Below, in pieces: positions 7,099 to 55,125 of a stretch of 64,000 nt of DNA (position 1 is the stretch's first letter; the number at the start of each line of letters is the position of its first letter). The position numbers and the translations under genes are program-made. The DNA lies in the NCBI GenBank assembly GCA_029204225.1, contig CM055097.1:28943192-29007191 (forward strand). Reading direction: 5' to 3'. The notes under the pieces were generated by a model. It was given only the letters and a program-made list of their open reading frames with translations. It did not search any database and had not been told where the DNA came from. This DNA is from Diphasiastrum complanatum. Its lineage: Eukaryota; Streptophyta; Lycopodiopsida; Lycopodiales; Lycopodiaceae.

Positions 7099-9755
7099 AT
7101 GATTGTAGCTTTAACAATGGCAATGTTCCATTTGCATGTTGTTCTTCCGATGGAATGCACTCCAATTATTAAGAAAAATGTGAAAGTTGTAGAGAATGCT
7201 GCAGCAATAGTTAGAGAATTGAGAATGAATAATCATATGAATATAGATTTGTGGGTGGATGGATCAATTTATCCTAATGATCTAGCTACCAATTTGTGTC
7301 TAGATTTTAAGTCCATAACTCATCTTCTCAGATATGTATATGAACGGATTACTTGGTTAATGTCAAAGGTTGCGTGATATTGGAATGCATAGCATATCTT
7401 GTCTGAATCAACAATTAGTTTGCTAATCAACAATTGCAACGTGCAAATCAACAATTGCTTTATTATGTGCAACACACTAGTGCTGAAAACAATGCACTCA
7501 AGAATGCTATGTCATAGTTGAATGCAACTGTCACTACTCTTCGAGGATCTAACCAAGAAATGTTAGAATCCAGGAAAAAGTTGCGATCCGAGAGTTTAAA
7601 ATCCGTTGTTGATCTAAAAGTTCTCAATAAGACAATGATGAAGAGGAAAAGAAAGAGAGTACCAATGAAGAATATTGATGACCTATCTGTACATAGCGGC
7701 AATCAGAAAAAAAGAATTCGAACATTCAAGTATGTTGTCATCTAAACTGTTTATTTGATTTGTATATGTCATTTAAGTTTGATTTGCACCTAATAACATG
7801 GATTATTTATTTATTAAACATAATTTGAGTTTCATATGTTTGTTGCAGATCATGTTTGGTGGCAAAGAACTATTTAACAGATCGTTCATGCATTGTATCA
7901 TCTTTAAGTCATGTTTTAACAAGAAAGTCAACAAAGGAAATGATAAAAAAATGCTCGGTTTGAAAAAATGAAAAATAAAATTGTAGAGACTGTTTTGATT
8001 AAGGTTCAATCATACTTGGATGCAAATGTGATACAAGGTGCATGTGATGTATCTGGAATTAACAGAAATGCTTATTCTACTTTTTTTAGAATAGTTAAAG
8101 AAGTTTTTTCCCAAGCAATGGTGAAGAAAATTAATCTTCCGCGTTCATATCGGGTAAGATTAGCTAGAATTTTTTATAATGATGGAATGTTCAAAGTAGT
8201 TGGCCAACCACTTCATATAACTAAATTATACAAATCAGAATATGGTGAGCTCAATTACAACGATTGCAACAATATTTTCCTTGATATTGAAAATGTTCTA
8301 AAATACATTATTTGATTCTACAAACTAGACGAACATCAAGTAAATGAAAAGATCATTATTGTAATAAAATTGGATAAATCTGAAATCATCAAGAATCAGA
8401 AGTTGGAACGTGTGAGTGTCACTTTGATGAACAAAAGTTCAGATACAGATGATTGAACATTTAGTGTTCAATCAGAAAATCACATATGGTGGTTGGTGGC
8501 ATTCCAAGTATACATTTCAATTTTCATTTAGAATATCTATATTAACAATTCATATCTTGTCAGTTTTTATTGACATGTCATGCATTACTTGTTTCTCTAT
8601 AGGTCTTGAAAGATGACCATAAAATACTAACATGGATATTTTCAAGAAAAAATTATGGCGAGATTATAAAGAGACATTTGGAGAGTGAGAAATTTACAGC
8701 TGAAAACCATGGAAGTTTTCAAATTCAATGGCACCTTGCAGGGGATTTGAAAACATTAAAGTGTATGTATAATGTCTCTCATGGGGCAACATCAAAGCAT
8801 CCATGTCTTTATTGCATGAAGGATTGTTACAATATGAATTTGGGACGATCAACAAACACTGGCCCAACACAGAGATCCAAATATAAAAAGTGTTCTGCCA
8901 ACACGAAGCTGAAGATCCAAATATGAAAAGTGTTCTGCCAATTCCATTAAAATATGTTCACATATACACATTGCATGTTGAGGTTCGTATTATTGAAAAA
9001 CTAATTTACTTGCATATTCTACTAGCATGGAATCATAAACCAGAGTCAGTGGCTAAAGCAGCAATTAGGAGGTTGGAAATAATTCTGTCAAATGCAGGAC
9101 TACATAAAGGGAATGTCACGATTGAAAAAAGTGACAGACTCTCAGGGAAAAAAGAAAACATTTCTAATAAGCCATCAATTGGAGGTGCTAAAACAAGAAG
9201 ATTCTTATCCAATCACACTTGCAAAGAATTAAGTGTCAGATACGAAATTTGGAGAGACATTGTTCACGCCACACAAACATTGGAAGGAAGTAATCGAGTG
9301 GAAAAGAGACAAGTGTGGACCAACTTAGACAAACTCATAGGTGTTATCAGGAAAGAAAACCTATCATCAGAAGATATGAGGACTTTGCAAAATCATTGCA
9401 CCACATTTGTAAAATTTGTACATGATTGTTGAGGAAAAGACAACGTTACTCATTACATGGTGCTAATCTATATCATTATCTGGTACTTTTCTCATTCAGG
9501 CTTATATTTTTTTCTACTGATGTAACTAATCAAAACTATTGTTTGTAGCACATCCTTCTTCATCATGCAACTTATTTTGCAAAGGAATATGGGAGCTTAA
9601 GTATCTGGTCATCATAAGACATGGAAAAATCTCATTGGCAAGCAAGGGGAGCATTTCATAGAGCAACAAATCATGGAGGACACAAGTCAAGATATAAATA
9701 TTTAGTTCAACTTTTTCAATTGCTTTTACAGAAGAGCACAATTAAGATATCAAGC
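7099..9755 (+). pseudogene. Transposase-like gene, copy 1 (multi-exon, decayed)
   Basis: Four exons can be placed by comparison with the copy at 24782-26092. Exon 1 (to about 7732, donor GTATGT) holds 'DLWVDGSIYPND' and a Lys-rich segment ending 'KKRIRTF'. Exon 2 (about 7850-8506) holds 'VIQGACDVSGINRNAYST', 'IIIVIKLDKSEI' and 'VQSENHIWW'. Exon 3 (about 8604-9470) holds 'WHLAGDLKTLKCMYN', then 'SKHPCLYC', then 'PLKYVHIYTLHVEVRIIEKL' and 'GKDNVTHYM'. Exon 4 (about 9549-9755) holds 'YGSLSIWSS' and 'DMEKSHWQARGAFHRATNHGG'. The order Asp strand, GD motif, CxxC, TLH, VTHYM, E..H resembles an RNase H-fold transposase-like family that I recall, unnamed, from invertebrates. That family link is from memory. 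Several in-frame stops and a tandem duplication at 8873-8940 break it. Confidence 0.7.
8873..8940 (+). repeat. Short tandem duplication in transposase exon 3
   Basis: AGATCCAAATATAAAAAGTG and AGATCCAAATATGAAAAGTG, each followed by TTCTGCCAA, occur about 42 bp apart. The related copy near 47340 has the phrase once and reads through in frame, so this duplication is what shifts the frame here. Confidence 0.8.
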
Positions 9756-9854
9756 TAAATACTCGCCAAGTATTACGATATTTCGGAAGGCATTCAAATT
9801 CATTACAAAAGAGAGATCCTTGTAATATATCAAAAATCTATTATAGAAAATTAT

Positions 9855-10140
9855 TTAATTATCATCATCATTCACTTCAAGATTCACACGGATGGTATTG
9901 TCATAAAGGCATAATCTCCTTTTATATGGATCCAAAAATTCTAATTTTTTCCTCTTGCTCATGTCAATGTAACTCGAATAAAGGGCCATTGCAGATGATC
10001 TTTTCGTAGTCTCATTGAGAGTATAACCCAATATCTTAATAGCCAAATCTCTCTTCACAAAAATTATTTTATATGTTCCTCTTGCGTACTTATGGCCTCC
10101 AAAACAAACTAATAATGATTTCATGGCCATAATGACAGTG
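9855..10140 (-). pseudogene. C-terminal remnant of the element's middle gene (gene B)
   Basis: Minus-strand translation gives 'MAMKSLLVCFGGHKYARGTY', 'KIIFVKRDLAIKILGY' and 'RSSAMALYSSYIDMS'. This aligns along its length with the end of the gene at 23289-24754 ('MAVKALSFYLGGHKFVKTN', 'KIIFVKRSYVLNILGF', 'RSSHYSLYSTYIEYS'). Only this terminal part is present: at about 10140 it joins directly to protease exons running the other way. It converges with the transposase-like gene, as in the 20.65-26.70 kb element. No known domain is recognised. Confidence 0.7.
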
Positions 10141-10904
10141 ATTACATAAGGTTTAGGGTTCATGTACGTCAATGATGAGGGTGTGTGTAATCCAGTTTGT
10201 TTGAAGATGAACTCTATTACACACACACACACACACAAAATTGCCAGGACCCATATACAGAAAATACTGAAACTCTTTCCAGTACCAAATGCAAAAACAT
10301 ACTCGAAGCTGAAAATGGTTGATGCAGAGATATAAATGTTTCAATATCGATTCGACGCGCCCTTGTAATTATTCATTGGTTAATTTTCCTAACGTGCGCG
10401 CTGATCCGATATTCAATCAAAAAAATTTGATATCGGTTTGACGCGCGCTTGTTTCCGTTGTAGATTTTATTCTTACATTCTGCACGTTGATCTGATATCT
10501 CATAATGTTCAAATTTGGATTCTACAGTCCTCCCAGCAGGTTGATTCTGTCAGTTGTGGTTGGTATATCGTATGCAATGCCAAACACTTTTTTAATTGGC
10601 TTGCATTACAAGATGGACTTCCAAATCTGGAAGAGGTAAATTTTGATTAATTACTATTAATTGTGTTTTTGTTTTTTTCATATACAAACTCCTATTAACT
10701 GGTCTTTGATTAATTACATTCAACTGTGTTTATGTTTTTTTTCAGTTTAAATGTCCGAAGGTCTTCCCAATGGAGATAATGCACTTCAGATAGGAGACCA
10801 TAAAGCTTGTGATCGAAAATTCATATCCAGTTGCAGTGGCCGAGTGTTCTCCACCCAAGCTACTTCCAACCGGAGAAATGGATTTAGAGATCATAGATAG
10901 CTGA
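10141..10904 (+). pseudogene. Ulp1/C48 cysteine protease C-terminal exons, copy 1
   Basis: Three exons of an Ulp1-like (SUMO-protease family) catalytic domain. The first (about 10141-10334) contains 'CLKMNSIT', the position of the catalytic Asp strand in this fold, here Asn. It is disrupted by an AC microsatellite at about 10218-10239. The second (10527-10635) contains 'QQVDSVSCGWYIVCNAKHF', with the oxyanion-hole Gln and the nucleophile Cys of the Q......CG signature, and ends at donor GTAAAT. The third (10746-10904) holds 'FKCPKVFPMEIMHFR' and the C-terminus '...MDLEIIDS', with one premature TAG after 'MHFR' where the 39.0-kb copy has Gln. The N-terminal half and the catalytic His exon are absent. 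Confidence 0.75.
10335..10526 (+). repeat. Protease intron carrying ATATCGGTT-GACGCGC motif cluster
   Basis: The intron between the Asn and Cys exons contains AATATCGATTCGACGCGC, GTGCGCGCTGATCCGATAT, GATATCGGTTTGACGCGCG and TGCACGTTGATCTGATATC. Two are in one orientation and two in the other. The same motif set recurs at 39355-39535 and at 53100-53755. It looks like a protein-binding array or the end of a small element. Confidence 0.6.
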
Positions 10905-20652: not shown

Positions 20653-20692
20653 GCATTAGAGGAGTTTTCAATATCAAAAAGACCCTTTGTAA
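20653..20692 (+). repeat. Left terminal inverted repeat
   Basis: GGCATTAGAGGAGTTTTCAA followed by TATCAAAAAGACCCTTTGTA pairs in inverse orientation with 26655-26700. Confidence 0.8.
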
Positions 20693-20764
20693 AGATACTT
20701 TTATTTTTTTCTTTAGTTTCAACCTTCATTAGGCCCAATCAAAATGCACAGATTTGAAATCTAC

Positions 20765-22072
20765 GTAACGTAGTTCAAATTAACCTGAAGCCTTGCCCTA
20801 GCCAGTATACTCAGGATAATTTCTTGTCTAAATCTGTACACCTGGCTTGATGTGTACTCAGGAAGTGTAAACTGCAAAATAGAACATTCATGTATCAGTA
20901 ACGGCCAATAACATCACCAGAATAGAAAACTAATCATGATTCCAAAATAAGAATAAACAGAATTTATTACCTTAGAAATATCAACATCTTGTTGAAGGAT
21001 GAACCACTCAAAAAACAACTTGGCATTGTACAATGTGTACCACCCACAGCTGAATGAATCATTTTGCTGAGGTGACTGCAAAATAATTCAGCACACAAGA
21101 AATCAATTATGAAACAGAATGAATAAGATTAAAAATATTTCATTAGAATACTGATTTCAAAATGTTATTAAGAAAGACAGAGTTTACCTCCAAGCTGACG
21201 ATCTGTCAGTCCACGGAATGGGGAACGTCTGTAGGAATATATTTACTTAGATATGGAATGTATATATCTACCTCCTTATGCATATTTCTCACCGAATTCA
21301 TCTTGACACAAAAACATTTAATAATATTATTTACAGATCTCTTAATAGAGATCATATTTGAACTCCAGTGGTCACTACAAAATAAGATTGAAATTTTCTT
21401 AGTTGCAATTCTAAGAACTATTTTCATTGACAATGCCAATGTTAATGCATAAAACAGCAAGAAGCATTTAATATAACTTACTTCGTATGATAAGGTATGA
21501 GCAGATACTTTGTTGCTGGTGTGAATCCACTTGTCAGACACTGTGACATTGTTCTCCTTGAAGCCCTGAAGCAGGAAGTTACTCTGCACCAGCAACTCAT
21601 TTGATGAATCTCTTGCAATGTCATATTGCAAGAGTGTAAGCCCGGACTCTATCACAAGATCACTGATAGAAGCCCGTTTGTCTTTGAGATCCAGAACTCT
21701 AAAATTAATACTAAAATCAAGTTCATCTAGTCTAAAACAAAAAGGAGTACCAATTTTATCTATAGCATCCGATATGTCTTTCTCAAATTTAAGATAATCA
21801 TCCGAATCTATATATGTACAAAAATTTGGAGGAGGAGGAGGAGGTGGATGTGTAGTATCTACAGCAATTATAGGAGTATCCAAAACAGAGGTAGCTATAT
21901 TTACAGCATTATCAACAGCAGCATTATCTACAATGGATTCTGGGATATGCTTCACAGAATCTGAAGGGTTAGATTTCACTTTCTTAGGATCGCGCTTGGG
22001 GGCTATGTGCTTCCTAGGACGCTTCGCAGAAAGATTAGTCCTATCTACAGGAGTTGGTTTAGGAGCAGCAGG
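20765..22072 (-). pseudogene. Ulp1/C48-type cysteine protease of the TIR element
   Basis: Reading down the minus strand: a Pro/Lys-rich linker with a nuclear-localisation-like 'KRPRKHIAPKRDPKKVK', a Pro7 run, a helical region of about 120 aa ('YIDSDDYLKFEKDISDAID'), then the protease. A frameshift near 21540 lies before 'LLIPYHTNDHW', the catalytic-His motif, which is completed across an intron (about 21375-21481, GTAAGT..TAG). Next is 'CVKMNSV', where Ulp1 has its catalytic Asp in a DS motif (here Asn), then a stop in place of Trp after 'PHSVD'. After a second intron comes the exon with 'QQNDSFSCGWYTLYNAKLFF' (nucleophile Cys). The last exon ends 'YRFRQEIILSILARARLQV' and stops at 20765. Its frame continues directly upstream into the histone-like segment, separated only by TAG at 22073. 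Confidence 0.75.
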
Positions 22073-22471
22073 CTAAGATACATGTAACCTATAGTACCTA
22101 TCCCTCATTCTCATCAGAAGCTGAAAATCTTTGGGCATTATGGTAACCCTCTTGGTATGGATGGCAAGCAAAAAAGAATCCTAAAAAAAAAGGCTAATAT
22201 AATCTTCAACAGCCTCCTGAAGGCACTGAAGAGCACTCGGTGTGAATCTAACGTGCTGTCCGAAATCATTTCTTGTTATCTTCCGGACAGCACGGTAGAA
22301 TGGAGCTCTTGGGATCAACAAAGTTGTTGACCTCTGATACTTGCATATCTCAGAGAGCCACTTGCTGCGGTTGTGCATTCTAGGTCTAGCAGGTGGTGTG
22401 ATGGCAACCACAGGAGATGAGGATGAGCCAGGAGAGAAGAAGTCCCTCCTTGTCTGCTTTCTCCTATCCAT
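22073..22471 (-). pseudogene. CENH3-like histone H3 fold
   Basis: An ATG in good context (GTCCATGG) opens a protein with a tail of about 40 aa and then a full H3 histone fold: 'LSEICKYQRSTTLLI' (alpha-N), 'APFYRAVRKITRNDF' (alpha-1), 'VRFTPSALQCLQEAVEDYIS' (alpha-2), 'DSFLLAIHTKRVTIMPKDFQ' (loop 2 and alpha-3). Loop 1 looks one residue longer than in canonical H3, and the wording LLIP.A.F.R.VR.IT, EDY, DS.L.AIH, KDF is closer to plant centromeric H3 than to canonical H3. The tail lacks the ARTKQTARKS start. A TAG at 22181-22183 falls where CENH3 has Ser (one base from TCG). A second TAG at 22073 follows 'RMRDRYYRLHVS'. There are no introns. It lies head-on in frame with the Ulp1 region, so it is either the N-terminal domain of one fusion protein or a separate captured gene. 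Confidence 0.8.
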
Positions 22472-23288
22472 GGACGTGAATTATGTGATAGCAGACTTGT
22501 GCGTGAAAGTTAGGATGAGAAGGGAGGGATGATAAAGAACTCGTAGAGGACCGCTATGTATGGACAGAATGTACGGTATATCGGACCTATGCGAGCCGAA
22601 TATCAGAGAGAACGATTAGATTTGAGAAAAGATGCACAAGTGCGATATGGGGTGACACGTAGGCAGATGTATCGGACCTGTGCGCATGGAAGACAGTAGG
22701 AGGAATTTCGATTGTGAAGGGCACGCACAAATGCGATATGCGGAGCGAAAAAAAAAAAAAGTGAAATTTTTTTTTATCGAAATTTGTGATTTTATATCGG
22801 GGTTCGCACGTGCGAAAGAACGTCTGGTCACACGTGTGGGAGTTGTACGGACAAATGTGAGAGTGACACATATCACCCTGTCACATTACACGTGTGAGAT
22901 TTGTATGATCGAATGTGAAAGCGACATGTGTTTATGAGCAATCGAATGAACATGCGACACGTGTGCAAGTGTCATCTCACACATGCTTGCGTCTGTTGTC
23001 CAATTGAAAGTAGACACATGTCATAACTCCGTTGACCAAATGTGCAAAAATTTAGTATAAATGGCACAAAAAACCGATTAATTTTTTACCTTTTGCATTC
23101 TCAAAATTTGCGACATATCGCTTTTGTGCGCGCTCATTGCTGTCCGTTTGCTTGCAACTATACCTACTCGCGCACAAGTGCGATATTTTGTATCTGTCTG
23201 CCGTACATATCCATCTTCTACACCATTTTGATAGTTAGTTTTGGTTCAGTTCTCCTGTGCGCACAAGTGTGATATTCACGTTACTGCC
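22472..23288. promoter_or_regulatory. Divergent intergenic region with GCGCACAAGTGCGATAT motif array
   Basis: Between the start of the histone-like gene (-) and gene B (+) lie many related motifs: GCACAAGTGCGATAT (22634), TATCGGACCTGTGCGCA (22669), GCACAAATGCGATATG (22725), TCGCACGTGCGAA (22803), several ACACGTGTG palindromes (22830-22970), GCGCACAAGTGCGATATT (23170) and GCGCACAAGTGTGATATT (23259). They occur in both orientations. This is probably where both genes are controlled, and could be a binding array for an element-encoded protein. Function is inferred only from position and repetition. Confidence 0.6.
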
Positions 23289-24754
23289 ATGGCCTCTTCC
23301 TCATCATCACGAGAATCAGGCTTGAGTTCATTTCCGAGCGAATTTGGGATTACTGAAAACCTAGACTACTTCCACAGTCTATTCAGGCCATATCTACATG
23401 TTTTCAGGACTGCACAACCAAATTCTGACGTATTTTATGAACATTATGTCAGATTCAGAGATATACTTAGCAAGCTTGTTTTCTCCATAGGTCCACTCCA
23501 GTACATGCATTATACTGATCTTGTTCATTTCATCCCAGCTTTTAGACATAGATTGGATAGAACGTTCACCAAACTGTTTGATTTTTTCAAAAGTAGTTCT
23601 ATGTGTCCGTATTGCAACAAGAAATGTCGATTGGTTGAATATCAGAGTGGTTTCGTACTTTTTCGGTTAGTTCAGATCCCAGATGATAATGAAGTTCCTG
23701 TTGCTTGCCCTCCTTTTGCACCCTCCTCTGTTCAGTCAGCCATTAAGGATATCAGTCACTTTCTTATCGACACTCTTGATAAAGAAAGTGACTTCATTGA
23801 TGTAAATACTGATGTTCTTCGGGATTCTTTCATTGGCCAAAATACATCTGATGATGAATCCAAATCTATGGAGGATTCGAAATGTCTTTTCAATTTGACT
23901 ATATATTATATTAATGATGATGTATATTTTACTACTGCTGATTTATGTAAATTTTTTGACTATTGTGAGGACGAGGTTCTATGTTTATTATCCGGCACAA
24001 TTTTCAAATTCTCCGACTTTGTAGATTTTGAGACAGATGACCTTGTTGCTGGTATTGATTTTGATGATGAGGAGGGTCTTATGACCAGTGAAGAATGTCT
24101 GAATAAGACTTTATCAAATATAGCTGAGAATGGGTGAGGCAGACCATTCGATGAAGAATTCACGGCATTTCAATCCCAGATGGGCTTCCCTCGTCCATCA
24201 TTACTGCATTTCACTGATGATTCCACTTCAGTACGTGGTCATTATATTAATCATCTTGATCTGGTTGCTGCTGATGATGAAGAATGTGTAAGTGTTTAAT
24301 CTTCCTTGCATTTGAATATTTTCAATCACTGAATGTGTTTTTGCTAACATATTTCCTATTGCAGGATTCTCTCATAATAGATGATTTTGCTGCGAGACGA
24401 GGTGGTTTCAGACAACACGCATCCTCATTCCAGAGGGACAATGGACTGGGCCACTATCTTCGACATTTCTTGAAGAATGAGATCTGTATTGCTCATTCCA
24501 AGCTGAGCCCAGTCGGGGAGAGTCTTATAATGGCAGTTAAAGCTTTGTCATTTTATCTAGGAGGACATAAATTTGTTAAGACAAATAAGATCATTTTTGT
24601 CAAAAGATCTTATGTTTTGAACATTTTAGGCTTTATTGATGGGAATGTTCCTTTAAGGAGCTCCCATTATTCATTGTATTCCACTTATATTGAGTATAGT
24701 GGAAATAAAGAATTAACCATACTTAGTTCACAATGTATTAATATTATTCAATGA
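23289..24754 (+). pseudogene. Gene B of the TIR element (unknown function, CxxC..C motif)
   Basis: The start is taken at GCCATGG (23289): 'MASSSSSRESGLSSFPSEFG'. Exon 1 runs to 24287 (donor GTAAGT) and exon 2 from 24365 (acceptor TTGCAG) to 24754. The N-terminal part has a helical region and 'MCPYCNKKCRLVEY', a possible zinc site. The middle has an acidic Ser-rich linker, then 'DVYFTTADLCKFFDYCEDEV', somewhat like BRO/KilA-type DNA-binding wording, though I would not assign it. Exon 2 has 'MAVKALSFYLGGHKFVKTN' and 'IIFVKRSYVLNILGF', conserved in the remnant at 9855-10140. A TGA at 24135 is the only stop in about 440 codons, so the gene was young when it broke. I do not recognise the family. 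Confidence 0.7.
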
Positions 24755-24781
24755 ATGTAATGTAATAATGAGGCTAGTTAC

Positions 24782-26092
24782 CTGAAACGCTGCCAACCAC
24801 CATATATCATTTTCTGACTGAACACTGAATTTGAAATCTTCTTGGTTCTCTGTTTTTTATAGAGCACCATTCATGAGAGTTATACTAACCCTTTCCATCT
24901 TCTGCCCTTTCACAATTTCTGACTCATCTAACTTAAGTACTATGATTATTTTGCCATTCACCTTTTCATAACTATCATAGAATGTGACGATGTATCTCAG
25001 CAAGTAATTTAGATCAACAAATAAATTGTTTGATGAATTATAGAATATCGATCTTCCATCAGTTTCATACACCTCTTCAGTATGAAATGGAGTTCCAGTG
25101 ATCTTATGCATACCTATGTTTAATGTATCTCTCTCTTTCTTCAAGTGATATGTCCTAGGAATTGGGACTTTTCTAATTTGAATTTGCTTGAAATCTTCTC
25201 TAATTAGTTTTAATATTGTTGTATATGCTTCCCTACTAATACCTGCAAAATCACAAGCACCCTGAACTATAGTTTTATCTAAAATATTTTGAATGTCCAC
25301 CATCAAAGACTCTACTATCTTACACTTTACATTTGAAATCCTATTGTTCATCATGATACGCTCAGTAGATTTGCAAGTCAATATTGTGCCCAATGACATT
25401 CCTAGTGAAGCATTGTCTTTAATATTCCGAGGAGCTACTAATGTAGACCTGCAAAAAAAACAGATAGTTAACAGAATATCACCATAGCTGAAATTAAATC
25501 CAAATGTCATTGAAAAACTTACAAAATTTAGAATATGCTTACTTGAATGCACGGATCCTTCTATTTCGATAACCTCCTTTTGAAAGCGTTTGAATATCCT
25601 TGCAACTTTGTTGCTTTCGCTTGTTACTTTCAGCCTTCTTCTTTACCAAATCCACATCTTTCAGTAATTGTAAGTTTTCAATACGAATAGACTGTAAGAC
25701 TGATTGCATTTGCTCTAGTTCTGATTTGATATTGATTGTTATCTTCTGTAATGATTCATTATTTTTTTTAAATTGTTCATTTTCTTCTAACGTCTTTTGG
25801 AGATGACAATCTATATTCTGACAATAAGAGAATATCCGAATTAACTCACCTTCTAAAAAGTGAATATTATTCATAAAAAGTTGTTTTCCATGGTTTTGCA
25901 ATCTTTCACAATATCCTAGTAATCCACTATGCCCATTGCATATCCATGTAACTAAATGAGTTATTGAAGAGAATGTGAGATGTGTCAAAGTGCTTGGATC
26001 TTGTGGATATAATGTTCCATCTGTCCACAAATCCACGTTTTTCTTTCTTTCTGCCCTGTAACGAAAACGATCTTCAGCAGATATTTAAACTC
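24782..26092 (-). pseudogene. Transposase-like gene, copy 2 (5' exons only)
   Basis: Exon A (about 26092-25543, donor GTAAGC) reads 'ERKKNVDLWTDGTLYPQD', then a coiled-coil region of about 100 aa ('LEENEQFKKNNESLQK') and 'GGYRNRRIRAFK'. Exon B (25448-24782, acceptor TTTGCAG) reads 'STLVAPRNIKDNASLG', 'TIVQGACDFAGISREAYTT', 'KIIIVLKLDESEIVKGQKM' and 'VQSENDIWWLAAFQ', then a perfect donor GTAACT. It aligns exon for exon with 7099-8506. The LDESE strand probably carries the first catalytic Asp. One TAA follows 'LMNGAL'. The downstream GD/CxxC/TLH/E exons seen in copy 1 are absent, because gene B's end lies only 28 bp beyond the donor. This copy is therefore internally deleted. Confidence 0.7.
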
Positions 26093-26654
26093 CTTTGCCT
26101 CCTCTTCTCTACAAAGGTGCCAAATCAATAGGGATATCTACATGTAGATAATATAATGTCATCATCAAAAAAATAATAGAGTAATCAGTTGCATCAAAGT
26201 ACTATGACCAGATTCTATGAAGCAAAACAAAATACTTATCTTTGATTATATTATATACTATGTACGATCAATCCAATCTCCATGCTTGTATGCTTGATTC
26301 AAATTTGAAAATGTCGCTCATTTTTTCATTCCAATAGGTAGTTGGCACTCATATTTCCATTCTCGTGGAAGGAATGCATATGTAAACATTTTGCAATTTT
26401 TCCTGATTCGAATTTGGGGATGGCGGTCATATTCTAGATTCAGTGAAAATATTGCTCTTTTTGTAACCAATGGAGGGAATATTTTTGAATTTAGTCAAGT
26501 TATACTGCGAACTGTTAACAGTTCTTAACTATGACTATAGACACTGTGGTTAGATCATTGGGAGTTGGGGAGGCCTTGGGAGTGGTGTGGGCAAGCAAAT
26601 AAACAATATTGTTTTATTTATTTTGATATTTTTATATATCCTACATGGCATTTC
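26093..26654. other. 5' flank of the transposase-like gene inside the TIR element
   Basis: No gene is recognised. As the region upstream of the minus-strand gene it should hold its promoter, but no specific element can be called. Confidence 0.4.
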
Positions 26655-26700
26655 TTAAAGGGTCTTTTTGATATTGAGAACTCCTCTAATGTAGAGTGCC
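26655..26700 (-). repeat. Right terminal inverted repeat
   Basis: TTAAAGGGTCTTTTTGATAT followed by TGAGAACTCCTCTAATGTAG and AGTGCC is the inverse of 20653-20692, with about 7 extra bp near the tip. Confidence 0.8.
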
Positions 26701-36931: not shown

Positions 36932-38280
36932 AATGGCTACACATAATCAGAGACCAAGAGAATCCATTGATGCAATCAATATTTGCAATGAAGAAAATGC
37001 AGAAGATCAATGGATACCGAGAATATATCAAAAATATCAATGGATCTTAATTCGTCCCTCTACAAAAGGCTCATTTCAAAAAAGAAAAAGATCGGATAAC
37101 ATATATAGAAGCTCTTGGAAAGGCAGGATAATGAATTTTAAAGTATCACCTACCGGTCAATCTATCACGGAAGTTTTAGTTCAGCATGCTTATCTTCACA
37201 ATGAGTTCAACATTCATGATTTGAATCCAAATGATAGAAGAAAATGTAATTGTAAGTTTTCAGATTTAATTTATTTCAGGTTAGCATTTTCTTTAGATTA
37301 TATTTTTCTTCTGATATTTTTGTTGGTTTTGCAGATTTGCATCCATCAAATTTCATTGAATGGCAAACAGTTCAATCGATTGCAGGAATAATCGATGTCA
37401 TACATTCGGATATCGGTATTTTACAATATAAAGGTCGTTCTCCAAAATCACTTTTAGATTCAGGAGTTTTCTTTTATGATCACATCTATTTTCCTGATGA
37501 AAATGGTTTAGTTGGTAGTTTAGAGCCATATCCTCTACCAGATTTTTTGAGTGAGGAATGGATTTCTCCTGATGCAGCAATTTCAGAAAGTTTTTGATCT
37601 AGGCTATATATTGATATTCAGAGTATATTAAAATATAGCACTGGATCAAAGAATAATAGATTAAGTTGGTATCTATCTTTTACTATTTTTGTTGATTTTT
37701 TTTCCAAATGCAATGTTCGGAGAACGAAAACATTGTTTATTTGTAAGGACCTGAGTGCTAAAATAATCGCCGAGTTGTTGGATGATGGTTGGGATACAAA
37801 ACAAAATCAACAAGTTGAGTGCAGAGTATGTTACTCATCCGTGATATTAGATATCACATCGAAAAACAAATGCTCACTTTGATGCTGTATTATAGAAGAT
37901 GGATTAAATGCAAAAATGTTTGGAAGCCACTTAATCAAGATTTTGGTATAAACCCTCAAGAGCAACTTCAGATAACAATGAAAAAAAATAACAACATTCT
38001 TGCAATGGTTGAGGTCAAGGAAGATTGGTGTCTCAATCACATTCGATCAGAACTAGACATGTTGCAATTCGATCTACCTTAGTACTATCAATTTCGATTG
38101 AATAGTGTAAAGGTACGTTATGCCATATAAAAATATTTCTTTTTTTCTATTTCTAAGTGAATCAGTTTAATAAAATATATTAACTAAAACAAGTTCTCTT
38201 GTGCAGGTAAGAGTAAATCAAGAAGAGCATATAAAATACAAAGATATTGGAACATCCATCGAAATTGAAGATCCATAGAT
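36932..38280 (+). pseudogene. Gene C, copy 1 (unrecognised, two or more exons)
   Basis: The start is taken at ATGGCTACACATAATC (36932). Exon 1 (to 37251, donor GTAAGT) has 'KYQWILIRPSTKGSF', the basic 'QKRKRSDNIYRSSWKGRIMN' and 'TEVLVQHAYLHNEFNIHDL'. Exon 2 (from 37336, acceptor TTTGCAG) has 'NFIEWQTVQSIAGIIDVIHS', 'GVFFYDHIYFPDENGL' and 'YPLPDFLSEEW', then TGA, then 'LFICKDLSAKIIAELLDDGW'. A frame change leads to 'LYYRRWIKCKNVWKPLNQ' and 'NHIRSELDMLQFDLP'. A last segment (from about 38207) has 'NQEEHIKYKDIGTSIEIED'. I do not recognise the family. The other copy (53783-55125) carries the same TGA after 'ESF', so both derive from an already broken gene. Confidence 0.6.
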
Positions 38281-38394
38281 TATGAACTATGGAATTTTGT
38301 ATTATGTAATACAATTTTTTGTATACATCATTTTTGAAAATATATGAATCACTTTTTCTATGAGGCTCTTTCATTTCTATGATTTTCATTTCCA

Positions 38395-38510
38395 TGGTGC
38401 AAAACACAATGTAATTGCAATTGGATAATATGAGGTTTCAATTACAAGATTCATTGTCTCCTGCAGGAAATGCATTATCTCCATTGGGGAGATCTTCAGT
38501 CACTTGAACT
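38395..38510 (-). pseudogene. Extra Ulp1-type terminal exon
   Basis: Minus strand: 'ISPMEIMHFLQETMNLVIE', 'SYYPIAITLCF'. It aligns with the terminal protease exon of the copies at 10746 and 38956 ('FPMEIMHFRQETIKLVIENS'). A second such exon lies 450 bp further on, so two protease copies abut here, or the exon was duplicated. Confidence 0.65.
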
Positions 38511-38955
38511 CTAGCGACCACTACAATCAGATATCGAATCAATGCTTGTCCTTGTTGAAGTCTCGTATATATCGATTGTATTTTTTGTCTTCATTTTCTT
38601 GGTCTGTATTGTCCTTGTCTTGGCATATTTAGATATGTTCAGATGATGATCTGATCAAAACTTTGCTGCAACAAATCTAAGTGAACTAATGTCGCATGTT
38701 TGGATTGGTTGTGGAAAAGGTTCAATCAGATCATCACTCTGAACTTATCCAGAAAAGACCATGGTAAAGGCAAGGCAGACCAAGGCTATGAAAAACAAAC
38801 ATGTCGGAAAACCATAGAAATTGAAGATGAATGAATCATAACCTGAATTAATAACAAGAAAAAAAAACAAGTAAGAACAACCATAGAAAAACTTTAAAAT
38901 TTTCTCGGGTATATGTGTCTCATCCACATCAAGTGAGACGAATATTTAATCATCA

Positions 38956-40500
38956 TCAACTATCTATAATCTCTAAATCCATTTTTCGAGTTGGAAGTAG
39001 CTTGGGTGGAGAACACTCAGCCATTGCAACTGGATATGAATTTTCTATCAAAAGCTTTATGGTCTCCTGCCTGAAGTGCATTATCTCCATTGGAGAGACC
39101 TTCGGGCATTTAAACTAAAAAAAAACATAAACACAGTTAAATATAATTAGTCAAAGATTAGTTAATAGGAATTTGAATATGAAAAAAACAAAAACACAAT
39201 TGAAAGTTATTAATTGAAGATTACCTCTTCCAAATTTGGAAGTCCATCTTGTAGTGCAAGCCAATTAAAAAAGTGTTTGGCATTGCATACGATATACAAA
39301 CCACAGCTGACATAATTAACCTGCTGGAAGGATTGCAGAATCTAAATTTTAACATTATGAGATATCGGATCAACGTGCAGGATGTTATAGTTAAATCTAC
39401 AACGGAAACAAGCACGCGTCGAACCAATACCCAAAAAATATTGTTTGAATATCGGATCAGCGCGCACGTTATAAAAAGAAACCAAACGATAACTACAAGG
39501 GCGCGTCGAACCGATATTGATAAATTTTTACCTCTGCATCAACAATTTATAGCTTCGTATATGTTTTTGCATTTGATACTGGAAAGAGTTCCACTATTTT
39601 TTGAATATGGCTCCTGGCAATTTTGTGTGTGTGTGTAATAGAGTTCATCTTTAAACAAATTGGATTATACACACCCTCATCATTGACGTATAAGGACAAC
39701 ACATATAAGCTCTAATGATTACTACAATCAGAAAACAATAAATTTATGAGAATCAATGTGAAATCAAAATTCATATGAAAAATTCAACATAATAAAATCT
39801 GAAAAAAAAACACTTACTTTGTTATGTATGGCAGCACGAGAATTGGAGTCCTCAGTCTGACGTATTGGGGTATATCATCATGCAGTAAAATCAGGAAAAT
39901 CAAATGCAGCCATGAATTGAAGGAAAAACAATGCTACATCTATAAACAATGGGGTCTGGAAAAACTCCATCCAGTACTGAATGGCCCCACCTCCTACATT
40001 GTCACCTAGCATTTTATCCCTATGTTCTAATTCATCTATATCTAAACTAGAAAGAGAGAGACCAGCATTGGTTTTCGGCATCCTAAAACTATATCGAGTA
40101 CCTAAAGCTTTAAGATATGTGTTTAACAATTGGTCATATTGTACATGTTGAGGAGTATTTACAAAGGCAAGTGCAGGGGGTGACGGAAGTAATACAAATA
40201 AACCAGAAAAAGAATTGTCATTCAAAATTGATTCTACCTTTACATTAACAAAATCATCTAAATCATTTTCTAGAACAGGAGGTGGGGAACTAATATTTAT
40301 GGGGGTAGGAGGAGGAGATTTATTAGGAGAGAAACATTTAGCAAGAGAGGGTAAAGATGGAGTTCTGGGAGGAGTAGATCGAGACTTAGGAGAAGAATTG
40401 GGAGGAGAATGCCTAGAAGAAAGAATCTCATTCAGAGGAGATGGCTTGGAAAAATCCCTCGTTTTATTTGTAGCGTCAAGAGACCTCTTTTTCAATCTGG
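38956..40500 (-). pseudogene. Ulp1/C48-type cysteine protease, copy 3
   Basis: From the high end: a linker rich in Pro, Ser and Lys ('KKRSLDATNKTRDFSKPSP') and a helical region ('HVQYDQLLNTYLKALGTRYS', to about 39880), then 'LRTPILVLPYITK' with donor GTAAGT (about 39810). Joined to the next exon this would make the His motif, but that exon is disrupted. Next are 'CLKMNSIT' with an AC repeat (about 39540-39720), the nucleophile exon 39225-39332 ('QQVNYVSCGLYIVCNAKHFF') and the last exon 38956-39114 (Gln kept in 'MHFRQETIKL'). The acceptor before the nucleophile exon is lost (CTGCAA where the 10.5-kb copy has CTACAG). The N-terminus is truncated at about 40500 by the dispersed repeat, so it is unknown whether a histone domain was present. 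Confidence 0.7.
39355..39535 (-). repeat. Motif cluster in copy-3 protease intron
   Basis: ATATCGGATCAACGTGCAG, ACGCGTCGAACCAATAC, ATATCGGATCAGCGCGCAC and GCGCGTCGAACCGATATT. Same motif set and position as the intron at 10335-10526. Confidence 0.6.
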
Positions 40501-41265
40501 TGATAGACAGACAATATGTAGTTGCAATTCTGTCCATTTACCGTGTTAATGAACGAGTTATAGATTTCATTCAGAGAATGTATCTTATGGATATCAAAGA
40601 TTTACAAGTATTGTTAATATAGTAAGTTTAAATGCATTTCTATAAAAATTATCAGGATTTATTGTAGTCATGGGTATTCATACGCAATGAATTAATGTGT
40701 ACATTACTTGTATCAATATAAATGATTTGTTCATAAATATTAGTATCCAATTGAGTATAAGATTTTATTCAGTTTTGTTTTGTTTGTTATGTGACTATCG
40801 AATATCATGTTATGAATTCATATCTAGAATCAAAAATATTTTCGTAGATGTATGCATGTTCATGAACGATGTACGTAGATTTTAATCAATGGTAGAAAAC
40901 CAAATCTTTTGTATGAGGTGGAAAACCCTTATGCATATAATATTACGTATGTATGTTGGTGAAAAATCTAACAAAAGTACGTAATTTACAAGAAATGTAC
41001 AGAAAAACGTACTTGATAAAACAGTACATTGTCATTCATAGTTTGTTCCATGGTTTTGTATATGTAAACCAGTTTTTTTTTTTTGCCTGGTGATAAATAG
41101 AAAACAATCATATTTCAATTTAAATAATCAAGTACCAAACAAGAAAATGAAATTTTCTATAAAGGAACAAGATCTTGTGTACATGTAATAATACATGCAA
41201 TAGTTAGTTACTGATGTAAAATTAGTAGTACATGGTTTGTTTAAATGTGTGATTTTATCGTCTCG
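40497..41265. repeat. Dispersed AT-rich repeat, copy B
   Basis: Homologous to 4530-5271 with the same landmarks in the same order. It begins where the copy-3 protease gene is cut off. Confidence 0.85.
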
Positions 41266-47169: not shown

Positions 47170-47755
47170 TTGGAAGTTTTCAAATTTAATGGCACCTTGC
47201 AGGGGATTTGAAAACATTAAAATGTATGTATAATGTCTCTCATGGGGCAACATCAAAGCATCCATGTCTTTATTGCATGAAGGATTGCTACAATATGAAC
47301 TTGGGATGATCAACAAACACTGGCCCAACACGAGAAGCTGAAGATCCAAATATGAAAAGTGTTCTGCCAATTCCATTAAAATATATTCACATATGCACAT
47401 TGCATGCTGAGGTTCGAATTATTGAAAAACTTATTTACCTGTATTTTCTACTAGCATGCAATCATAAACCAGAGTCTATGGCTAAAGCAACAATTAGGAG
47501 GTTGGAAATAGTTTTGTCAAATGCAGGACTACATAAAGGGAATGTCACGATTGAAAAAAGTGACAGACTCTCCAGGAAAAAAAAAATGTTTCTAATAAGC
47601 CAACAATTGGAAGTGCTAAAGCAAGAAGATTCTTATCCAATCACACATGCAAAGAATCAAGTGTCAGATATGAAATTTGGAGAGAAATTATTCAAGCCAC
47701 ACGAACACTGGAAGGAAGTAATCGAGTGGAAAAGGGACAAGTGTGGACCAACTTA
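47170..47755 (+). pseudogene. Transposase-like gene, copy 3 (exon 3 fragment)
   Basis: Nearly identical to 8710-9325 over its whole length: the WHLAGDLKTLKCMYN and SKHPCLYCM part (47170-47310), then the ORF 47352-47768 with 'PLKYIHICTLHAEVRIIEKL' and 'AGLHKGNVTIEKSDRLSRKK'. Unlike copy 1 it lacks the 42-bp duplication, so the junction reads cleanly. It stops at GGACCAACTTAT, where unrelated LTR-like sequence begins, so the VTHYM and E..H parts are missing. Confidence 0.8.
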
Positions 47756-53782: not shown

Positions 53783-55125
53783 TGATCTTCAATTTCGATG
53801 GATGTTCCAATATCTTTGTATTTTATATGCTCTTCTTGCCTTACTCTTACCTGCACAAGAGAAATTGTTTTAGTTAATATATTTTATGAAACTGATTCAC
53901 TTAGAATTAGAAAAAAAAGAATATTTTTATATGGCATAATGTACCTTTACACCATTCAATCGAAATTGATAGTGCTGAGGTAGATCGAATTGCAACATGT
54001 CTAGTTTTGATCGAATGTGATTGAAACACCAATCTTCCTCGACCTCAACCATTGCAAGAATGTTGTCATTTTTTTTCACTGTTATCTGAAGTTGCTCTTG
54101 AAGGTTTATACCAAAATCTTGATCAAGTGGCTTTCAAACATTTTTGCATTTAATCCATCTTCTATAATACAGCAACACAGTGAGCATTTGTTTTTTGATG
54201 TGATATCTAAATGTCATGGATAAGTAACATACTCTACACTCAACTTGCTGATTTTGTTTTGTATCCCAACCATCATCCAACAACTCGGCAATTATTTTAG
54301 CACTCAAGTCCTTACAAATAAACATTGTTTTTGTTTTTCGAACATTGCATTTGAAAAAAAAGTTCAACAAAAATAGTAAAAGGTAGATACCAACTTAATT
54401 TATTATTCTTTGATCCAGTGCTACATTTTAATATACTCTGAATATCAATATATAGACTAGATCAAAAACTTTCTAAAATTACTGCATCAGGAGAAATCTA
54501 TTTCTCACTCGAAAAATCAGGTAGAGGATATGGCTCTAATCTACCAACTAAACCATTTTTATCATGAAAATAAATGTGATCATAAAAGAAAACTCCTGAC
54601 TTTAAAAGTGATTTTGGAGAACGACCTTTATATTGTAAAATATCGATATCTGAATGTATGACATCGATTATTCTTGCAATCGATTGAACTGTTTGTCATT
54701 CAACAAAAATTGATAAATACAAATCTGCAAAACCAATAAAAATATCATAAGAAAAATATATTATAAAGAAAATGCTAACCTTAAAGAAATTAAATCTGAA
54801 AACTTACAATTGCATTTTCTTCTATTATTTGGATTCAAATCATGAATCTTGAGCTCATTGTGAAGATAAGCATGTTGAACTAAAACTTCTGTGATAGATT
54901 GACCGACAAGTGATACTTTAAAATCCATTATCCCGCCTTTCCAAGAGCTTCTATATATGTTATCCGATCTTTTTCTTTTTCGGAATGAGCCTTTTGTAGA
55001 GGGATGCATCAAGATCCATTGATATTTCGATATATTCTTGGTATCCATTGATCTTCTGCATTTTCTTCATTGCAAATATTGATTGCATCAATGGATCCTC
55101 TTGGTCTCCAATTATGTGTAGTCAT
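53783..55125 (-). pseudogene. Gene C, copy 2
   Basis: Inverse copy of 36932-38271: 'KYQWILMHPSTKGSFRKRKR', 'SSWKGGIMDFKVS', 'LFICKDLSAKIIAELLDDGW', 'LYYRRWIKCKNV' and 'EEHIKYKDIGTSIEIED'. The ATG is conserved (55125). Exon 1 is frameshifted early, the same TGA after 'ESF' is present as in copy 1, and a further stop follows 'RRWIKCKNV' (TGG to TGA). After 'SIEIED' the sequence runs into the motif-rich stretch below 53783 instead of the stop seen in copy 1. Function unknown. Confidence 0.6.

Follow-up and report, generated by a model that had tools for sequence, protein, structure and literature searches.

A high-copy TIR transposon clade in Diphasiastrum complanatum encodes a histone H3 variant

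Introduction

DNA transposons which carry a histone H3 gene are known from fungi. The H3L hAT element of Pyrenophora tritici-repentis includes TIRs, a transposase gene, an ORF of unknown function and an H3-like gene, with ESTs, which is unlike the fungal H3 (Manning et al. 2013, PMC3538342). Its copies, 10 of about 5.6 kb and 16 of 2.3 kb, are very similar to each other, and the part of that article available to us describes neither a protease fusion nor diverged families. A captured histone H3 is likewise carried by hAT elements of Pseudocercospora fijiensis and of five further fungal genomes (Dhillon et al. 2019, PMC6710886). According to the sections of that source at hand, the captured host H3 is intronless, is present in hundreds of copies within elements of 9.5–9.9 kb and is accompanied by a hAT domain, an 8-bp TSD and copies inactivated by RIP.

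In plants, the VANDAL/KIU MULEs of Arabidopsis encode a protein with a Ulp1 domain and carry short noncoding repeated motifs. VANC proteins bind the noncoding repeats of their own elements and induce the loss of silent marks (PMC10398659), and some VANC genes carry Ulp1 (PMC13317346). These elements are non-TIR MULEs for which the accessible text of PMC13317346 names no histone fold (the word "histone" occurs 0 times). Selfish DNA encoding an H3-like protein on its own is also found among viruses, whose single H3 histones are thought to interact with the histones of the host (PMC9145170, as far as its available text goes).

A preliminary description of a locus in the genome of Diphasiastrum complanatum proposed a CENH3-like histone fold inside a TIR element and knew of no described transposon with such a gene. 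Since the fungal hAT elements already provide transposons with an H3 gene, this claim needs narrowing. The literature searched includes no plant case, no fusion of a histone with a protease and no set of diverged transposon families with a conserved H3 fold, which does not prove that none is published elsewhere; the parts of PMC11687628 and PMC4357034 at hand hold no plant transposon with H3. What appears to be new here is an H3 fold fused to a protease-like part in diverged, conserved families. The elements resemble the Pyrenophora hAT in being TIR DNA transposons with an H3-like gene, and the Pseudocercospora hAT in copy number, size and an intronless H3, but their fold is diverged, is under selection and is followed by a Ulp1-like region. 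They share with VANDAL/KIU elements a Ulp1-like protein and short repeated motifs in a plant DNA transposon, but have TIRs and a putative transposase without a Pfam match, and the anti-silencing function which is that of the VANDALs is proposed here by analogy. Like the viral H3s they are selfish DNA encoding a lone H3-like protein, and unlike them they are TIR-bounded and high-copy in host chromosomes. A viral origin was considered and rejected: a scan of IMG/VR viral contigs gave 76 pattern matches, none of which was confirmed as a relative.

Results

The window element and its H3-Ulp1 gene

The window, that is the whole stretch of 64,000 nucleotides analysed (contig CM055097.1 of assembly GCA_029204225.1, forward strand positions 28,943,192 to 29,007,191), lies on contig C6 of the genome searched (1.74 Gb, 5,176 contigs). 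A repeat search in the window identified 35-bp inverted ends which bound an element of 6.04 kb holding an H3-type fold. The two arms are 97% complementary and are separated by 5,968 nt. Their end pattern, CATTAGAGGAGTTNTCAATATCAAAAAGACCC, has 599 + 588 exact matches genome-wide (1,187 in all) and the reversed control pattern 0 + 0. The features of this copy, in window coordinates, are:

20654..26691, no strand: family A element, window copy, TIR to TIR (inverted-repeat search)
20654..20688, plus: left terminal inverted repeat (repeat search; end pattern with 1,187 exact genome matches)
20785..20871, minus: exon 4, truncated at about 20785 in the window copy (comparison with other copies)
20971..21075, minus: exon 3, Ulp1/C48-like, QQND..SCGW motif (window ORF alone PF02902 E 5e-4, just under the Pfam cut-off)
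21188..21374, minus: exon 2, Ulp1/C48-like, HW motif (PF02902 E 2e-8 with the exons of the 30-copy majority sequence joined)
21482..22471, minus: exon 1 of the H3-Ulp1 gene, with tail, H3 fold, basic linker and start of the protease region (one frame from the ATG; precedes GTAAG; splice site by eye)
22073..22075, minus: second in-frame stop, codon 133 (translation)
22079..22387, minus: H3-type histone fold, alpha-N to alpha-3 (PF00125; tblastn to H3 and to other element-borne folds)
22181..22183, minus: TAG stop, codon 97 (translation; codon state compared over 30 copies)
22472..23288, no strand: divergent intergenic region, flanked by the H3-Ulp1 gene and by gene Y (short repeated motifs ATATCGCACTTGTGCG and ACACGTGT abundant)
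23289..24134, plus: gene Y, first part (no Pfam match)
24365..24751, plus: gene Y, second part (relative in family E loci, blastp E 1e-11)
24860..25447, minus: putative transposase, middle part (role assigned tentatively; no Pfam match above cut-off)
25539..26036, minus: putative transposase, upstream part (role assigned tentatively; weak coiled-coil-like Pfam matches only)
26657..26691, minus: right terminal inverted repeat (repeat search; end-pattern count)

The two structural proposals of the preliminary description, an intronless H3-type fold readable from alpha-N to alpha-3 and its position inside a TIR element, were both borne out. The fold is read on the minus strand from an ATG at 22471 to 22073, its product starting with MDRRKQTRRDFF and continuing into the fold as RSKWLSEICKYQRSTTLLIPRAPFYRAVRKITRNDFGQHVRFTPSALQCLQEAVEDYISLFF, a stop and DSFLLAIHTKRVTIMPKDFQLLMRMRDRY. 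The 96 residues preceding this first stop match PF00125 with an E of 5.3e-17, and the fold of an open copy, L004, with an E of 1e-28. Within 164 codons, two in-frame stops interrupt the window copy.

The preliminary description mentions neither these stops nor the continuation of the frame past the fold, where a linker and then spliced Ulp1-like exons follow. In the 30-copy majority sequence, the fold (with the majority TAG inside) leads in frame through the basic linker KRPRKQTAPKRAPKKVK into a Peptidase_C48 region (E 2e-8), the three GT...AG introns of the protease region being placed by eye. In L074, of family A2, a single open frame of 284 residues spans the fold, the linker and the start of the protease region. 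The His and Cys motifs of Ulp1 are present and Asp was not found at the expected site; the place of the catalytic Asp of Ulp1 is presumably taken by Asn (KMNS), and protease activity is uncertain for this reason.

The window copy is shorter than other copies. Pairs of TIR ends elsewhere, on C1 and C2, are 9,451 and 9,371 bp apart, which suggests complete elements of about 9.4 kb. Two stretches are missing from the window copy: about 1.35 kb near 24711, which L032 and L033 have, and at 20785 a segment of about 1 kb or longer, which is present in L032–L034. Target site duplications are 8, 9 and 3 bp in hAT, MULE and CACTA elements, respectively. None was found at the ends of the window copy; among five end pairs checked, which may span different elements, one has a TSD of 3 bp (gac), one (g)tca and three none. 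The putative transposase parts tested, whose coding sequence is partial, have no Pfam match above cut-off and no recognisable hAT, MULE or CACTA transposase domain. In the divergent intergenic region of the 30-copy majority sequence, ACACGTGT occurs seven times (maximum of 2 in 300 shuffles) and CGCACTTGTGCG three times (0 in the shuffles), the motif list having been drawn up post hoc, after the sequence was viewed.

The window as a whole is a nest of such elements. At 7950–10611 a further relative includes putative transposase parts (45–67% identical), a gene Y fragment on the opposite strand and a Ulp1 fragment; a convincing H3 fold was looked for there and was not found. At 36948–40537 a related sequence carries gene X on the plus strand. 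Its minus strand holds a Ulp1 fragment (39249–39368) and an ORF (39881–40537) which by eye resembles the linker preceding Ulp1 and has no H3 fold; this is possibly a family which lost, or never had, the fold. Further putative transposase and gene X fragments lie at 47172–47516 and 53963–55107.

Copies in the genome and host H3 genes

All 40 copies scored with the 399-bp stretch as DNA query (40 of 1,557 first-look candidates) match over the full or nearly full length; identity is 100% for the window copy itself and 94–95% for the other 39. Thirty copies, including the window copy (L001), were compared over the first 164 codons: five (L002, L004, L007, L016 and L021) are free of stops and shifts and 25 are broken. 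At codon 97 the first base is T (TAG) in 18 copies and G (GAG) in 10, with 2 left unmatched by the test; these proportions of stops and of codon 97 states are biased because the 30 copies were chosen as those nearest to the TAG-bearing window copy.

A search with canonical H3 identified 13 host H3 genes at 97–99% (L035–L047) as well as H3.3-like exons. Among the 150 scored of its 6,060 first-look candidates it also gave over 100 folds with 44–57% identity. With a protein query, a candidate host CENH3 exon of 36 residues was found at C3:74791650-74791757 (reverse complement 1141–1248 of L103), followed directly by gtaagt and with an unusual LLLRPLPF. A search for later CENH3 exons in the following 2.75 kb, and nearby among the best 150 matches listed, found none. 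A DNA motif for W..EALxALQE, tried as a probe for host CENH3, gave six matches, none of them CENH3, which by eye we take to be a retroelement motif.

At least seven families and an order common to A, B and D

At least seven families were distinguished. Beside family A, 10 E-type loci among L051–L064, 20 loci picked for diversity from the lists of matches (L071–L090) and L104–L106 fall into A2 (also referred to as a subfamily), B, C, D, F and E/E2. Among these loci, A2 has five members, B four, C two, D and F one each, and the remainder are E/E2. Representatives of six further families match PF00125 with E-values of 7e-29 to 8e-24, and a profile of 15 element-borne rows matches the H3 chains of the PDB from residue 1 on (E 1e-40). 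Family B starts with MARTKQTARLTTF, C with MARAKQTTR, D with MARTKQIARPKS and F with MARTKQTARLTSF.

Downstream of the fold, Ulp1-like sequences with the HW and SCGW motifs are present in B and D. With exons joined by eye, PF02902 is matched above the Pfam cut-off in A (2e-8), B (1.6e-5) and D (1e-4). In family C, where a copia-like element cuts the copy, only the Ulp1 part preceding the catalytic motifs was found. Gene X follows the H3-Ulp1 gene in A, B and D, and putative transposase sequence accompanies it in L032, L033 and L034 and is missing from L031, which has a deletion there.

In E/E2, the start MARTKQTARDPRV and the fold are split by a long low-complexity stretch; the two lie in one frame with an intervening stop in L053 and in different frames in L063. 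These loci (L051–L064, L084, L088) present an H3 tail start (L053, L063), a Pro/Gln-rich stretch and then the fold. Family E loci carry a relative of gene Y; Ulp1 was looked for in about 1.5 kb downstream of four of them and was not found. The E/E2 type makes up many of the best matches of the canonical H3 search and of one later search.

A high-copy TIR transposon clade thus encodes a histone H3 variant, and it is almost certain that this variant forms part of a conserved, element-encoded H3-Ulp1 fusion.

Selection on the fold

Majority sequences of 29 A copies (L029 was dropped, its anchor missing) and of five A2 copies were compared. Over the fold, dS is 0.364 and dN 0.019, giving a dN/dS of 0.053, with 19.5 synonymous and 4.5 nonsynonymous differences (Fisher p 1.6e-10 on rounded counts); dN/dS is 0.311 over the linker and 0.153 over all 264 codons. 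The fold is therefore under purifying selection between A and A2. In 15 pairs among six other families, with C, D, F and E2 represented by single copies and A compared only to A2, pS is 0.73–1.0 (saturated) and pN 0.17–0.42. The columns equivalent to H3 residues which touch H3' and DNA are invariant across the 15 aligned element-borne rows; they include what we take to be the equivalents of H3 R83, H113, R116 and T118. Two of the checks suggested in the preliminary description, a search for further copies within the element ends and a dN/dS test, have thus yielded a multicopy family and support for selection.

Tails that start like H3

The proteins start with MARTKQTAR in L073, L053 and L106, with MARAKQTTR in L081, with MARTKQIAR in L090 and with MDRRKQTRR in 29 of the 30 A copies. 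Of the features of an H3 tail (ARTKQTAR, K9 and more modifiable lysines), the start is kept and few lysines lie past K4. In a post hoc test on five proteins (A, B, C, D and F, the tails of C, D and F being those of one or two copies each), lysine makes up 2 of the 27 K + R past residue 9 of the tails, compared to 57 of 149 elsewhere in these proteins (p 0.0015). Both of these lysines come from family D, which has a lysine near position 9 (ARPKS) and a further one ahead of the fold. The tail of host H3 has 7 K and 4 R. Among A copies, 3 of the 30 have a lysine at residues 10–37; in the E copy L063, a family outside this test, a lysine follows soon after the start (DPKV). It seems that the elements have kept the requirements of an H3 and that most of the sites on which silencing marks depend are gone.

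H3 or CENH3?

Identity of the element-borne folds is 40–54% to host H3, 39–53% to the CENH3s of Arabidopsis and rice and 33–47% to the host CENH3 candidate exon. A single copy nearly identical to host H3 or CENH3, which the preliminary description had considered as the sign of a stray pseudogene, is not what is seen, and a host H3/CENH3 pseudogene is ruled out by the copy number and the low identity to host genes.

For most rows H3 is as near as CENH3, or nearer. The exceptions are family B, where CENH3 (43–46%) is 2–5 points nearer than H3 (40–42%), and family F, which is one point nearer to one of the Arabidopsis and rice CENH3s. In a tree of 20 rows and 104 columns, with long branches and with provisional reference CENH3 sequences, the element-borne folds group with CENH3 against H3 with a support of 92/96; support is 66/0 for these folds alone, 94/92 for A+A2+B+C+D+F and 100/99 for E+E2. 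In AU tests, a clade of the folds with H3 and without CENH3 is marginally rejected (p 0.032), and the p value is 0.08 for E with H3. Placement with plant CENH3, which is neither demonstrated nor rejected, gives p values of 0.396 for all folds, 0.343 for E and 0.344 for the remaining families, subject to the provisional references and long branches. LLIPxAxF, which is present in most families, matches the CENH3s of Arabidopsis and rice.

In view of the identities, the tree and the AU values, the folds appear to be H3-derived with a mild CENH3 lean that may be due to long-branch attraction, and as judged from sequence their CENH3 affinity looks weak. The CENH3-like character initially proposed is thus weakly supported, by the tree and by the marginal rejection of the clade with H3, but not by the identities, which are not consistently nearer to CENH3, nor by the tails, which start like H3. 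The longer loop 1 noted at the same time holds, by alignment with H3, for the window copy (one residue) and for A, A2 and C (+1) and F (+4), but not for B, D, E and E2 (+0).

Discussion

A chromatin or anti-silencing function encoded by the element is possible, if somewhat short of an even chance. In this reading the protein would pair with host H4 and be deposited on the element's own chromatin. A bolder and less likely form is that these plant transposons assemble nucleosomes of their own: an H3 variant which keeps K4, has lost nearly all lysines open to silencing marks and is fused to a SUMO protease would provide the element with a silencing-proof chromatin. Because K4 is present and hardly any other lysine, the tail of the protein would be unable to carry the repressive K9/K27 methylation which silences plant transposons, and the protease part may remove SUMO from nearby silencing factors. 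The element would in this way supply an anti-silencing chromatin protein to itself and, in trans, to broken copies. Its motif-rich divergent promoter would be the natural target, as in the VANC systems of Arabidopsis; given the Ulp1 part and this repeat-rich promoter, VANC/KIU anti-silencing in VANDALs would be the closest functional parallel.

Alternative explanations were weighed. The H3-like subunit, with host H4 or alone, might wrap or bend the element ends during transposition while the Ulp1 part processes a SUMOylated partner. The conserved DNA-contact and dimer-interface columns, the stronger conservation of the fold than of the linker and the co-occurrence, in L032, L033 and L034, with putative transposase sequence all speak for such an architectural role, but the kept H3 tail start is left unexplained, and we regard this role as unlikely. 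We attach the same low likelihood to a decoy or dosage effect, in which the protein would titrate H3 chaperones, H3K4 readers or SUMO enzymes throughout the genome rather than act on its own chromatin: a cost to the host would be expected and the repeated promoter motifs suggest local action, even if the kept tail start and fold and the very high copy number are in keeping with it.

Centromere targeting, in which the fold would mimic CENH3 and direct the element, or its integration complex, to centromeric chromatin, is rather improbable. It draws on the tree support of 92/96 and the p value of 0.032 mentioned above, on LLIPxAxF in most families, on the longer loop 1 of A, A2, C and F, on the slightly greater proximity of B to CENH3 and on a cluster of TIR ends on C1, where 27 of 84 lie in the last 6.6 Mb (p 2e-12, the region being picked after the list was seen). 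This cluster may be read as centromere, subtelomere or general TE density. Against centromere targeting stand the identities, in which CENH3 has no consistent lead over H3, the loop 1 of B, D, E and E2, which is not lengthened, the LLLRPLPF of the host CENH3 candidate exon and the distribution of the A family: the 34 of 40 matches for which contig size is known (42–102 Mb for the contigs among C1–C23 with a size shown) are spread along chromosomes, eight of them in the last tenth. Passive amplification of a host H3 or CENH3 copy taken up once, as known in fungi for the hAT/H3 elements with decayed copies (PMC6710886, in the sections available), would agree with stops or shifts in 25 of 30 copies but is very improbable given the dN/dS of 0.053 between subfamily majority sequences, the saturated synonymous change beside a more conserved protein between families and the fold-linker-Ulp1 order common to A, B and D.

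Should silencing-proof chromatin be the correct reading, a transposon lineage would have recruited the core unit of chromatin, altered the part which the host marks for silencing and kept the result by selection. The escape of a transposon from epigenetic silencing would become testable with one protein, and a natural histone H3 with a tail almost reduced to K4 would be at hand. In genomes of this kind, transposons can inflate the counts of H3 variants obtained with PF00125.
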